In this document: positions 29,600-35,232 of the stretch, one piece after another
How the letters are laid out: each line of letters starts with the position of its first letter
How positions within the stretch are numbered: the stretch's first letter is position 1
Assembly (NCBI GenBank): GCA_023627715.1
Contig: JAMAHW010000050.1
Coordinates: 124,001-188,000, forward strand
Length of the DNA: 64,000 bases
DNA from: Periconia sp. R9002
Lineage: Eukaryota > Ascomycota > Dothideomycetes > Pleosporales > Periconiaceae
Reading direction: 5' to 3'
Made by a program: the position numbers and the translations under genes
Notes under the pieces: generated by a model
Told to the model about the DNA's origin: nothing
What the model saw: only the letters and a program-made list of their open reading frames with translations
Database searches by the model: none

Positions 29600-32500
29600 T
29601 TACCTCCTGGAACTTGCCATGTGACCGTAACGATCACGTTCTCGTGTCGTATCGTATGCTTGTAATACACGGGCCTGGGATTCATCGGTCTGCGAGAAAG
29701 CATAGCCACGTTGCTTGCGCATACGCTGGACTTGACGCACTTTACGGATGGCTTTCTGGAATTGTTCCATTCTTCACCTTTTGTTAGCAGAGCCCGCAGA
29801 GTACATGGTGGGGAAATTGAGGACATACCGAGGCCTGTAGTCTTGAATATTGTACTTTTGAATCTCCTGCACGTGGTGATAGCTTTGAGGGAAATACATG
29901 CGTTTTGCGTATTTCCAGGCAAAATCTCTGATCAGACACAGTGGAGGTAGTACGCAGAGCATAGCCCAGAACCTCAGATCTGGAAACATGCGTTGAATAA
30001 CGCCTATGTACTCGGTCGAAGTATTCACCTTAGGTGCGACGGTAGCGTAAATAGGAAGGAGAATGAACCAAAGGGCCATTGACCCGGGAATGGCAAGAAC
30101 AGTATATTTGGTCCAGATGTTAGTGATAAGCGCGGCCTTGAGCAGCACCGTGGCAAGTGCAGCAGTGTATAGCGCTGTACCCCATACCCAATGCCCTGCG
30201 TTGCGACCGTCCCACTGGGGCCAATCCCACGCTATAAAGGCTTGTGAGGCGTAATACAGAATAAGCGAATGGTAAAAGCCGTTGGCGACCCAGGACCAAA
30301 ACGAGTGCATCTTGAAGAAGACGCCGGATTGAGTAAGACGATATAGTTGCGGATACCTATCCAACAGGCGGGCGCTGACATATTGGTCGAAGATGCCGAG
30401 AACGAATGGCGGTGCAGCAGTGAAGAAGACGTTGTAGAATGTCAATGTCCACGATTCGTAGATAATCTGTCCCGAGAATGCGTTCTGGCCGGAGTACCAA
30501 AATTGAGTCATGAACAGCGCGATGTTCTTATAGAATGAATACAGGATAACCTTGCTGATACGTTGGTAACTCCAAGCCCCATGGACGAGCAGAAGCTTGC
30601 GCAGGTAACGAAACTGCCCGATTGAAATGTCTGCACTTCTGGCAGCTTGGAGACCCTCCATACCACTGATGCCAATACCAACGTGCGCGGCTTGTATCAT
30701 GGACACGTCATTTGCACCATCTCCGATAGCAAGCAAAATGGCTTTGAGATGGCGTTTCACCAGCTTTACAACCAAAGCTTTCTGAAGTGGCGACACGCGA
30801 CAACAAATGACAGCCTTGCACTTGACGGCCAAGTCCAAGAATTCTTTCTCCAAATCGCGCTCCAATGCGTAAGTAAGAGACTTGCCGTCAATAACGAGAG
30901 CTAGCACATCTTGTTCTGCGCCACCTAAGCTTTGGCTGTTGATCGCATTTAGCTTCTTCTGTATGTTATCACGGGTTGCGTCTTTGGATTCCTCGTTGAC
31001 AATCAACAAGCTCATATCCTCACTGATCAATTTGCAACTCATACCAATGTTGATGGCAGTCTCCTGACGATCCCCAGTCAATACCCAAACCTTAATACCG
31101 GCGGTTTGTAGGGTAGAGATGGTATCTGGGACGCCGTCCTGAAGTTTATCCTCGATTGCAGTTGCACCAAGAAGGGTCAAGTCATGCTCAATGAGCTCGG
31201 CAGCCTTATCGAGTTCTTCAGCTCGATTTCCACTAACGGTTGTCTGTGCCTGATTGAAGATCTTGTACCATTCCTGCCACTCGTGTTCTGGAATCTCACG
31301 CATCGCCAGACACAGTGTTCGTAAACCATCGGCGGCATATTCCTCGAGATGTGTGAGTGTGACTTCGGTGAACGGGTTGTCTTTGGCGAGCCGTTCTAGA
31401 ATGACAGTATCTGCACCCTTGGTGTAGCAATAGATCTTTCCTTCCGGCGAGCGGAAGATTGTTGACATTCGTTTCCGGGTAGAGTTGAATTCACACACTG
31501 CCAAGAGCTCATACTCAAGTTCTTTCCCATCGACCAAGATCCTAACAGCGCGGGGTTTACGGGCAATGAATCTATACCCCAGCTGAACAGCACCCTCCAC
31601 CAAAGCTCCTTCGTCAGGAGAAGCTGCCTGATATTTGATCTCTCCCTTTTCGCCTTTGTTTTCCGGTATGACGGTATGACATGTCGAGAGAAGCGTCAAG
31701 AAATGATGAATGATATCTCTGTTGGGATGTGTCTTACGGTTTTCAGCGAGCTTGGCAAAGTCGTGGATACCAACTTCAACCCCATCTTCGATGGTGGCGC
31801 GTCTATCCTCCGGAACCTCATCTGCGTATTGAATGCCAGCAATAGAAGATTGCCTGAATTCCATGATGTTCTGGGTCAAAGTTCCTGTCTTATCCGAGAA
31901 GATGTATTCGATCTGTCCTAGTTCCTCAACTAGGGACGAAGTTCGGCAATTCGCAGGCGTGTCTGTAGGCTCATAGTATATATCGAGATCAGAGTCGATC
32001 AATGTTCCAGTCCAGTATTTGACCACTTCAATGGTAACAAACAGCGAGATGGGGACTAGATTGGAATACAGGACCCAGTACGTCAGCAAATCGAGAAAGA
32101 ATTGAGAGGCGCCGTTAAAGCTGTCATAGCGAAGATACTCCAGAGTATTGCCTCTTGTCGTTCGAATGAGGACATCACCAACGGAACTGACGATGCTTAG
32201 GCCTATCAGAACACAAACAAGCATAAGAATCTGCTTATTGACCATTCTTTCAACGGCAGTAGTCTTGATAGGGGTGGCGGTGGCGTTCCTCATAAGCTTG
32301 GTTTCATGTCCGGTGAATACAACGACGCCATGAATCCATGGTGTATTTCGCAAAGTAGCCCCACGTAGTAGTAGCTGATCAGGTTGTAGTGGTAGTTCTT
32401 TCTCTCCACCGCCAGCTGCAATTGTCAGCGTGGCTTCGTATGTATACAAGCTACTGTTCGGCTGTTCCGATTTGATCTTTCCGCCTAAACGCCCCAACTC

Positions 32501-33697
32501 TGCCGGACTAACCATATCCGCGGTCTCGGGAATGCCTTGTTTGATCTTCAGATTTGTTTCGCCATCCAAATTTGCGGTTTCAATATAGCATAACGCCTCC
32601 GGTTCGGATGAAGCAAGCAAAACCAAGTCTGCTGGGAACGGATTCTCTGATTCGACGCGAACTATGTCTCCTACGGCAACGTTGATCCACCGAGTGTCCT
32701 GGAACGTTGAGCCTTTCAACACCTGTGCCCTCGAGTTGTTCAAAGTCGAGTCCGATTGTCTTCTTCTATAATCTTCAACATATTCTTTCACGGCCGATAC
32801 AAGTAAAACAACACCCAAAGGAACGATGGTCGTATATCGTTTTGTAGGTGAGATGCCAGGTATTTGTTGCAGTATAGCCGTAAACAAGAAGAAGATATTG
32901 GCGTATTTGGAGAACTGTTCGAAGAGAAATTTGGGTAGAAAGGTTATGACGTTGTACTTGGTGGTGGATATATGGTTGTCGATGTATTTGTTCTGTGCGT
33001 TTGCGGGTGGATTGTTCAGGTGTATTATCCTAGGCCCCAGTGTTGATGGATCAGGGGCTCCTCGGCCGAAACCGAACTTGAACGTCCCTGATTTGCGTTT
33101 CTTTTGAGAGGTAGAATCTTCGGCAGCAGCATTGGGGAGACCGCGGCCTTGTTGCGCGGCATTCTCGGTCAACGGCAAATCCATTTCCGAGTATTCGGGT
33201 TTTTGGCCTAACATGCTCTTTACACGGCCAGTGATGCCCCCGCCCATGCTCATAATGCTGCTTCTATTGGCTTTCTTAGACTGATGGCGACTTCCTTCTG
33301 CTGGCGCCTCATAGGTCGACCCAGCATAGTACCCTTGCGCGGAATGATCGTCATCGGGTGGAATATCCGCGTCCGAATAACGCTGATAGTTGTGCAGGTC
33401 GGACGTTTGTGAATACAACCTCGAGCCTCCCATAGAGTAGGGTGTTTCCCCAGCGATAGGGGCACCAGGACCTCCTGGAAGGCCAGCAGTAGGCCTGCCT
33501 CCCCCTACAAAGTCATCGTAAGATACCGACGGCCGACCCTGCGGCGTATCGGGATTGTGTATGTCGTGTCGGTGTAAGAGTTCGTCATCGTCAACGGGCG
33601 GCCGTGCGCCGGAGGAGTAGTAGGAGGGTTGATGGTCGTCGAAGTCGATTAGGTTCTCGCTATGCGAGGGCGGTTGTCCTGGCGGCCGACCGGCCAT
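29600..33697 (-). CDS. DRS2: P4-type phospholipid-transporting ATPase (flippase) Drs2
   Basis: Two exons (33697-29829, 29771-29600) give 1346 residues. A long Gly/Pro/Asp-rich cytosolic N-terminus is followed by the P4 region: PANAQNKYIDNHISTTKYN, a glutamine pair in TAILQQIPGISPT, the actuator motif LDGETNLKIKQ, the phosphorylation motif DKTGTLTQN (Asp about 601) and the hinge GDGANDVSMI. The glutamine pair suggests phosphatidylserine transport. The C-terminal exon is easily missed. It carries the Drs2-type autoregulatory tail (QRMRKQRGYAFSQTDE) and ends GHMASSRR. Drs2 flips PS at the trans-Golgi, driving vesicle formation. The first true ATG is 33697. The intron is 57 nt with a GCTAAC branch. 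Confidence 0.95.
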
Positions 33698-35000
33698 GGC
33701 GGCCAAATGATTCGCGTGTCTCTCCTTCCACTAGCGATTATCTCCCTCACTTCATCCAGATGGTTTGTATGGCGCACCGAATATTCACTCTGTCTTGACT
33801 GGTTTGCGTGATCGGATGGTGTTGGTGGTGGTGGTGGCACGGGGTATGGGGTAGAATCGAGAAGTTGTCAGACGTTGCTCCTCTTTCCAGCCTCCGAAGT
33901 TCCGCAGCCTTGGCCAACGTTTCGGAATGACGAGGGTAAAGAGCCAACACTAGCGCGGTGATGATGGACGACAAAACAGTAGTTGAGGCTGCACGTTAGA
34001 AAAGGAGACCTGAGATTGTTTTTGAGATTTGGAAATGGGTCGAGGAGGCACAGATGCAACTAAGGCACGGACAGACTGTGCTCTTTGGGGCAGTGCGAAC
34101 GCCTCAGCCCAGCAGTACTATGTAAGCGCGCGGTGACACCCCTGCCGCGTTTCTTCAACCAGCTACTTGTAGGTATTGCGTCGTAAGCTGCTTCTTGGAG
34201 GAATGAAGGAACAGCAGGGGTTGGAGCAAAGCATGATTCAAAATCCAGCTGTTGCGCGCATTCTTTTTCTCTCTTGTTTCTAAGATTCCAAGGTCTCTGG
34301 ATGCCGCGCACGAGGCAGCGGCCTAATTGGCCATAATCATCACGAATCTGAATTGCTTCTTCCGCTTCTGAGCTGTAGATAACAAAAGTACAAAATAAAT
34401 TCCATACCCACCTCGCCAGAGAAGCCCTTCCGGGACTGTGGTGTGTCTGTATACGTAGCTAGAGTTACGTATGGCAAACGGCTGTGCATGGCCATCTCCA
34501 TATGCAAGTAAAAGCACAAGTCTCGTGCGCATTGGTTAGGGACGCCAATTTATTGAACGGGCTACGCCTCCAATCCATATCGAGTATGACCAGGGCGTAA
34601 AAGACAAGGCGGAAGACATGCAAGTGCTCGCATGGGGCTTAAGCTGACGACTTGCGCACTGCCATGCCAGACTGCCAGACTTGATGCCCATCACTTGCAT
34701 ACATACATGTAGACGAAAGACCCCATTCGATCAATATTTGACATTGGTAAACTGCATTTGCGCAGGCTAATGCAAACCCCACATAAGAATGGATAAAGGG
34801 CGATCCAAGATACAAAGATAATCAAGTCGCCTAACTACCAAATGGTGATTGGATCAATTACCGGTTCGTTGCTCTGATGATTAATCACACCGAGACTAAG
34901 TGAAAATCGGGAGAAAAAAATGCACTGACTAAGAACCGCGAGATGATGGTGAAAAACCCATCCGTCACCGACTTTGAGCCTCTTCCATATTTTGGTTTGG
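33698..35000. other. DRS2 promoter and tRNA upstream region
   Basis: About 1.3 kb. The first few hundred bases are CA/GT-rich DRS2 leader sequence. The part close to the tRNA gene is AT-rich. No protein-coding frame is supported. Confidence 0.5.
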
Positions 35001-35008
35001 TATATAAA
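35001..35008 (+). promoter_or_regulatory. TATA-like element upstream of the tRNA gene
   Basis: TATATAAA starts 46 bp before the first tRNA base, in an AT-rich flank. Fungal tRNA genes often have upstream TATA-like elements that help place TFIIIB. The role is inferred from position only. Confidence 0.45.
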
Positions 35009-35083
35009 TTATTTACTTCACCAAATAACCATCAATTCCACTATAAGCCTGGTTAGCTCAATCGGTAGAGCGTGAGACTCTTA

Positions 35084-35120
35084 CAGAGATCACTTTCTCA
35101 GAAAACGATTGATTTAAGCA
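35084..35120 (+). other. Canonical tRNA intron (after position 37)
   Basis: Thirty-seven nucleotides lie between A37 and A38 of the anticodon loop, the position cut by the eukaryotic SEN endonuclease. Removing it leaves the loop CTCTTAA closed by a five-pair stem. Confidence 0.85.
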
Positions 35121-35140
35121 ATCTCAAGGTTGCGGGTTCG

Positions 35141-35199
35141 GTACGTTCCTCCTAGCATATGCAAAGTTCGAATCACAGAAATCACTAACAAATTTCCAG
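35141..35199 (+). other. Spliceosomal-type intron inside the tRNA T loop
   Basis: Fifty-nine nucleotides between G57 and A58 begin GTACGT, contain CACTAAC 11 nt before the end, then TTTCCAG. Length and signals match the protein-gene introns of this window. Its removal exactly rebuilds GGTTCGACCCC, a correct T loop and B box. It is not at a site used by the tRNA splicing endonuclease in known fungal tRNAs. Confidence 0.75.
35166..35174 (+). promoter_or_regulatory. B-box-like element inside the T-loop insert
   Basis: GTTCGAATC matches the core of the Pol III B box (GGTTCGANNCC). The normal B box is interrupted by the insert, which leaves GGTTCGGTACG without the conserved A58. This internal copy could therefore serve TFIIIC binding. 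The function is inferred. Confidence 0.45.
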
Positions 35200-35224
35200 A
35201 CCCCCGCATCGGGCTTACAAAATA

Positions 35225-35232
35225 TTTTTTTT
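35225..35232 (+). terminator. Pol III T-run terminator
   Basis: Eight consecutive T begin ten bases after the discriminator base, a normal RNA polymerase III termination signal. This supports Pol III transcription of the tRNA gene. Confidence 0.75.

Follow-up and report, generated by a model that had tools for sequence, protein, structure and literature searches.

The accepted view is that the SEN endonuclease cuts the introns of nuclear tRNA genes, and we know of no nuclear tRNA that needs the spliceosome. In fungal U6 genes, introns have reportedly been inserted repeatedly, as Canzler et al. are said to have described in 2016. The U6 snRNA gene of fission yeast carries an mRNA-type intron (Tani and Ohshima 1989, cited in PMC10484740), and the U6 introns of Schizosaccharomyces match the B-box consensus (Frendewey et al. 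1990, cited in PMC10484740), both according to the portion of the citing paper available to us. The accessible portion of PMC5832005 places spliceosomal introns in the U3 snoRNA genes of fungi, in the first stem-loop. In the archaea, according to the excerpts of PMC4090602 at hand, tRNA introns are found at positions 53/54, 56/57, and 59/60, and non-canonical tRNA introns occur in Cyanidioschyzon merolae and in nucleomorphs; introns of this sort may stand beside a canonical one in one gene. The same excerpts ascribe the archaeal and C. merolae introns to the endonuclease acting at a bulge-helix-bulge and leave the cutting of the shortest nucleomorph introns unexplained.

We analyzed a stretch of 64,000 nucleotides from Periconia sp. 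R9002, hereafter the window, and compared its tRNA-Lys(CTT) gene with these systems. The likeness to fission-yeast U6, as far as the available U6 text goes, is that of a Pol III gene with a spliceosomal-type intron and, in the Lys genes here, a tRNA-type B box in that intron. Unlike fission-yeast U6, the hosts are tRNA genes of four families, the native B box of the Lys genes is interrupted by the insert, an ordinary anticodon-loop intron is present as well in six of the seven genes, and the U6 genes of this genome show no intron. Canonical pre-mRNA splice-site signals in a fungal non-coding RNA gene are shared with U3, although U3, as presented in the accessible part of PMC5832005, is a snoRNA and no tRNA or B box is involved. 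The window gene does have a canonical eukaryotic 37/38 intron (35084-35120), but the T-arm insert lies elsewhere, carries mRNA-type signals, and in a crude helix test showed no consistent bulge-helix-bulge. Archaeal introns, too, occupy T-arm positions, 53/54 and 56/57 among them; in contrast to the archaeal and C. merolae introns, as described in the excerpts of PMC4090602, the inserts here have GT...CTAAY...AG.

Among the literature matches listed (titles and the starts of abstracts, with subscription literature mostly outside), spliceosomal introns in tRNA genes were not described, and the available part of PMC8216456 mentions none. By analogy, the insert seems to work like the U6 case, with the tRNA as a host RNA that is new as far as the literature searched shows. 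We put the probability at roughly 85% that the tRNA-Lys(CTT) gene of the window is a nuclear gene in working order that has introns of two kinds and is transcribed by Pol III, the T-loop insert being removed by the spliceosome and the 37/38 intron by endonuclease and ligase.

The tRNA-Lys(CTT) gene of the window and its paralogues

The features of the gene are given below; the gene and the TATA-like element were read from the sequence and the exons from sequence and pairing.

35047-35215, + strand: whole tRNA-Lys(CTT) gene (L001)
35001..35009, + strand: TATA-like element, 46 nt 5' of the tRNA
35047..35083, + strand: exon, tRNA positions 1-37 (acceptor 5' strand, D arm, anticodon CTT)
35084..35120, + strand: ordinary anticodon-loop intron, 37 nt, at position 37/38, present in 5/5 Lys(CTT) genes found
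35121..35140, + strand: exon, tRNA positions 38-57, its 3' end being GCGGGTTCG
35141..35199, + strand: T-loop insert, 59 nt, between G57 and A58 (a boundary with a one-G ambiguity), read as a spliceosomal-type intron
35141..35146, + strand: GTACGT, 5' splice-site-like, which also opens two predicted protein-gene introns of the window
35166..35174, + strand: GTTCGAATC, B-box sequence within the insert, 9/9 bases invariant in the four Lys inserts
35183..35189, + strand: CACTAAC, branch-site-like, its presumed branch A being 11 nt from where the insert ends
35197..35199, + strand: CAG, 3' splice-site-like
35200..35215, + strand: exon, tRNA positions 58-73
35225..35232, + strand: T8 run, Pol III terminator-like

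Removal of both segments leaves a 73-nt tRNA with 7/7 acceptor pairs and 5/5 T-stem pairs, identical at every base to the exons of an insert-free paralogue, L005. The sequence-only reading had proposed the T-loop insert from this gene; the cloverleaf that is complete after both removals, three paralogues, and three further families confirm it as real, and the signals that it named (GTACGT, CACTAAC, and CAG) were each located in 35141-35199. The gene escaped the automated searches: ARAGORN reported no tRNA in the window with bacterial settings and none at this locus with introns allowed, and Rfam did not find it at the gathering score. A long open reading frame on the minus strand (29774-33706), with the yeast phospholipid flippase DRS2 as its best solved-structure match, lies about 1.3 kb from the tRNA gene.

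A genome search with the whole window gene gave five places (L001-L005). The earlier proposal to count the tRNA-Lys(CTT) genes and see whether every copy has the insert has a divided outcome among the five genes found: four carry it, with lengths of 59, 58, 59, and 53 nt in L001-L004, and L005 has the same 37/38 intron with the T-loop insert absent. The 73-nt exons are identical across the five genes (0/73 differences). Pairwise identity is 86-97% for their 37/38 introns, 57-72% for the four T-loop inserts, and mostly 35-57%, with one pair at 66%, for the flanks of 100 nt on each side, the flank values coming from forced alignments. The long invariant stretches in the four aligned inserts are GTA.GT, GTTCGAATC, ACTAA, and AG; the 5' splice-site-like sequence is GTAAGT in the three insert-bearing paralogues, as against GTACGT in the window. 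Unchanged exons next to diverged inserts and flanks suggest that the copies are duplicates of some age on which purifying selection is strong, and they do not resemble decaying pseudogenes.

That the insert-bearing copies are nevertheless pseudogenes, with lysine AAG decoding left to L005 and other copies, is an alternative that we consider improbable. It draws on the existence of the intact, insert-free L005, by which the four insert-bearing genes could be dispensable. It has to accommodate zero exon changes in four copies despite diverged inserts and flanks, the retention of splice signals, B box, terminator, and TATA-like element alike, the presence of an insert in the sole Arg(CCT) match of the assembly, and a pattern common to four tRNA families. 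Intact copies lacking the insert, together with an absence of spliced reads, had been named beforehand as a sign of a pseudogene: one such copy was found, whereas pseudogene decay was not seen in the four that carry the insert.

Against the Rfam tRNA model L005 scored 54.4 bits, and the loci L001-L004 gave no match up to E = 0.1; in the Rfam genome search two of these four appeared, as partial matches only, at 25.8 bits. The 37/38 intron of L005 is closest to that of the window gene (36/37), which would fit a loss of the insert, gene conversion, or chance. L005 (also L035, G000:C14:603052-603161) is called Glu(CTC) by ARAGORN, with the intron placed differently, so automatic annotation of the tRNA-Lys(CTT) family may be wrong.

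T-arm inserts in further families and their splice-type signals

Three more genes with a split T arm came from searches in which splice motifs played no part: Arg(CCT) (L073) from the Rfam tRNA genome search, at 45.7 bits, and Glu(TTC) (L126) and Gly(CCC) (L125) from a D-arm pattern whose nine sites yielded these two plus an already known Val gene. Their anticodons and boundaries were assigned by eye, with a pairing check afterward. The T arm of Arg(CCT) is split at 53/54 by 50 nt (GTAAGT...TTCTAAC...AAG), that of Glu(TTC) at 53/54 by 52 nt (GTACGT...TTACTAAC...CAG), and that of Gly(CCC) at 58/59 by 82 nt (GTACGT...TTGCTAAT...TAG). The anticodon loop holds an intron of 21 nt in Glu(TTC) and one of 16 nt in Gly(CCC). 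Arg(CCT) has no 37/38 intron and would therefore need the spliceosome alone. A DNA search of the assembly with the insert-bearing Arg(CCT) gene, of uncalibrated sensitivity to an insert-free copy, gave no second match, and the gene with the insert may be the only tRNA-Arg(CCT). Exon conservation was assessed on Lys(CTT), the family with several copies found, as against one gene each found for Arg(CCT), Glu(TTC), and Gly(CCC). Rfam detects the Glu gene with both inserts in place (34.9 bits), and the Gly gene was not detected with the Rfam tRNA model. As the tRNA finders tried miss most of the seven genes, fungal tRNA sets may be incomplete.

All seven T-arm inserts start with GTRNGT, contain CTAAY, whose branch A lies 10-16 nt short of the insert's end, and end in AG (CAG, TAG, or AAG); once the inserts are removed, acceptor 7/7 and T-stem 5/5 pairs form in every one of the genes. 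Among 300,000 random inserts with equal base frequencies, none had all three signals, each being counted in a single boundary register where repeated bases permit alternatives (about two per gene), and the product of the single chances for GTRNGT, CTAAY, and AG is ~3e-6 per insert. A chance GT...AG in an unrelated insert was rejected as a poor account in view of this simulation, the three insert-bearing paralogues, and the three motif-independent families. No similarity was found between inserts of different families by short BLAST among the sequences compared, so nothing in that comparison points to a mobile intron common to them.

For the protein-coding genes, junctions between long ORFs of the window were predicted; a GT...AG candidate, 50-77 nt in length, turned up in 13 ORF pairs, two of the 13 having a common 5' site. 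These predicted introns have the same kinds of signal as the T-arm inserts. Their starts include GTAAGT, GTACGT, and GTATGT, and 9/13 have CTRAY with the A 8-13 nt from the end, in the output of a script that itself required GTRNG and CTRAY. The reversed window sequence produced 0 intron candidates but also fewer ORF pairs (11 vs. 62), making it a weak control. The T-arm inserts are 50-59 nt long in six genes and 82 nt in Gly, slightly longer than the predicted host introns; the equality in length with nearby protein-gene introns claimed for the 59-nt Lys insert is approximate, given their range of 50-77 nt.

In total, T-arm inserts were found in 7 of ~52 nuclear tRNA genes examined (the seven plus 45 with an uninterrupted B box). 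Of 1247 first-look candidates, 63 were scored in the Rfam tRNA census, which is therefore incomplete, so the absence of other families from the list means nothing. For the 57/58 type, 4 of the 46 genomic GGTTCRGTRHGT sites are tRNA genes, all Lys(CTT); 45 sites were screened by a script considering the T stem across AG and the A box, and the 46th is the window gene. The 58/59 type gave 12 GGTTCRAGTRHGT sites, one of them a tRNA (the Gly gene). For the 53/54 type, ten of 15 CTAAY...YAGTTCRANNC sites were examined and one is a tRNA (the Glu gene), the pattern missing Arg(CCT), whose insert ends in AAG. The D-arm patterns had 9, 49, and 41 sites, of which 29/99 were examined (9/9, and 8/49 and 12/41 chosen by eye); some of the remaining sites are tRNA genes already in the Rfam census.

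A covariance model trained on the seven insert genes recovers them at 57.8-91.3 bits, by construction; across 96 sources it otherwise found only an insert-free Val gene (37.2 bits), and it identified no further tRNA among the GGTTCRGTRHGT loci. A search for relatives with an exact pattern had 0 matches over viral contigs. Its one match in prokaryote genomes lies in a bacterial stretch that by eye resembles a DNA ligase gene and is not a tRNA. L042 (C148) and L043 (C166), closely similar copies of a repeat that spans ~400 bases, were set aside as unrelated, no tRNA being seen in them. Separately, a tRNA-Gln(TTG) gene (L058, G000:C22:351577-351710) has an anticodon-loop intron of ~62 nt, the longest among those listed by ARAGORN.

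Promoter elements and a proposed maturation pathway

TFIIIC recognizes the B box in the DNA, and splicing is therefore unable to restore that of the window gene. The sequence-only reading had the removal of the insert restoring both the T arm and the B box; the former stands, with 5/5 pairs, and the latter has to be given up, the insert carrying a B box of its own. We scored B boxes with a matrix built from the 45 nuclear tRNA genes with an uninterrupted box, whose native range is 8.2-18.7 bits. In each Lys gene the best site lies inside the insert, at 12.0, 13.7, 10.6, and 7.6 bits in L001-L004, the last slightly short of the lowest native score (8.2). For the native site, which the insert splits, the score is 2.7 bits in L001 and -3.9 in both L002 and L004; in L003 this site falls outside the top three listed for that gene. 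At the 53/54 junction the insert-final AG and TTCRA together form AGTTCGAGTCC in Arg (15.7 bits) and AGTTCAAACCC in Glu (12.4 bits), and in Gly the 5' exon and GTAC form GGTTCGAGTAC (10.7 bits). A B-box match is kept in 7/7 insert genes, at 7.6-15.7 bits, in a mode that goes with the site: insert-borne at 57/58, AG|TTCRA across the 3' junction at 53/54, and GGTTCGA|GTAC across the 5' junction at 58/59. Each of the three insertion points thereby keeps a B box.

Counted from the start of the gene, the B box begins at 101-124 nt in six insert genes, at 68 in the Gly gene, and at up to 113 in ordinary tRNA genes of this genome. In every insert gene a TATA-like element precedes the gene by 39-69 nt, and a T5+ run follows within 40 nt downstream; of the insert-free nuclear tRNA genes, 34/42 show a TATA-like element in the 80 nt before the gene and 36/42 a downstream T5+ run. 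A single TTTT occurs within the Glu transcript, in the anticodon loop. The insert genes have a complete cloverleaf, A and B boxes, and a terminator, the B box being displaced into the insert or rebuilt at it, and from the promoter and terminator sequences we infer that they are transcribed.

On our preferred reading, Pol III would transcribe the window gene by way of the TATA-like element before it, its A box, and the insert-borne B box, and the spliceosome would recognize the T-loop insert of 59 nt as an intron of U2 type (GTACGT / CACTAAC / CAG) and remove it, as the splice signals and exon conservation lead us to infer. The T arm could fold once the insert is gone, and the tRNA splicing endonuclease (SEN) and ligase would then excise the 37-nt anticodon-loop intron. 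This order is suggested by structure only: the tRNA endonuclease as a rule gauges the body of the folded tRNA, and we therefore place SEN and ligase after the folding of the T arm. The same arrangement would apply to the three further Lys(CTT) genes and, at neighboring T-arm positions, to Arg(CCT), Glu(TTC), and Gly(CCC). The spliceosomal-type intron that had been suggested for the window gene is the best account of the insert, which 4/5 Lys(CTT) genes found carry with identical exons and which has counterparts of the same kind, at or close to the same site, in three more tRNA families. We further think it likely that these inserts represent a third class of nuclear tRNA intron, dependent on the spliceosome, gained repeatedly in the T arm in at least four families, needing removal for maturation, and with the B box surviving in DNA.

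The T-arm inserts could instead be ectopic introns cut by the tRNA splicing endonuclease at a bulge-helix-bulge, as in archaea and Cyanidioschyzon, a reading to which we give little credence. T-arm introns are known in archaea and non-canonical ones in red algae and nucleomorphs (PMC4090602, in the excerpts available). A 4-bp central helix at the expected register is possible, with G-U included, in two of the seven inserts (L003 and L073); the other five reach 1-3 of 4 pairs there, in a crude test in which ordinary introns reach only 3/4, and the endonuclease mechanism makes no demand for GTRNGT, CTAAY, or AG. That the insert is retained, so that the T loop is enlarged or some other RNA results, is highly improbable. 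A 7-nt T loop is needed for the contact between the D and T loops and for tRNA enzymes; with the insert it would grow from 7 to 57-89 nt, and the Lys inserts vary outside the splice signals and the B box. Assembly error or contamination can practically be dismissed, with seven loci on six contigs (C50, C7, C9, C21, and C24, of 278 to 741 kb, and C8, of at least 694 kb), flanks that are unrelated among the Lys copies, and an anticodon-loop intron common to the Lys copies with and without the insert.

If removal by the spliceosome is true, these would be the first nuclear tRNAs that we know to depend on it, and several tRNAs, perhaps including the sole tRNA-Arg(CCT), would mature only after spliceosome action, mostly together with the tRNA endonuclease. 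They would offer natural tests of the route to the spliceosome taken by a Pol III transcript that has no cap, of an internal promoter limiting the landing sites of introns (7/7 found keep a B box), and of a possible coupling of tRNA supply to mRNA splicing.

Other Pol III genes of the genome

No intron was found in three full-length U6 copies, L044 (C6), L045 (C30), and L046 (C11), and none was seen in the SRP RNA gene matching Fungi_SRP. As U6 and SRP RNA show none, introns are not general in the Pol III genes here. In the budding-yeast U6 gene, the B box lies after the gene; the U6 copy on C11 has GAGTTCGAATCC downstream, a B-box match 3' of the gene. Two partial U6 copies were also seen. 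One (L048, G000:C6:611800-611868) is a 3' part that adjoins an intact U6, and the other (L047, G000:C107:7510-7610) is a 5' part lying between TAAAGTATCTTT direct repeats, an arrangement that looks as after retro-insertion.
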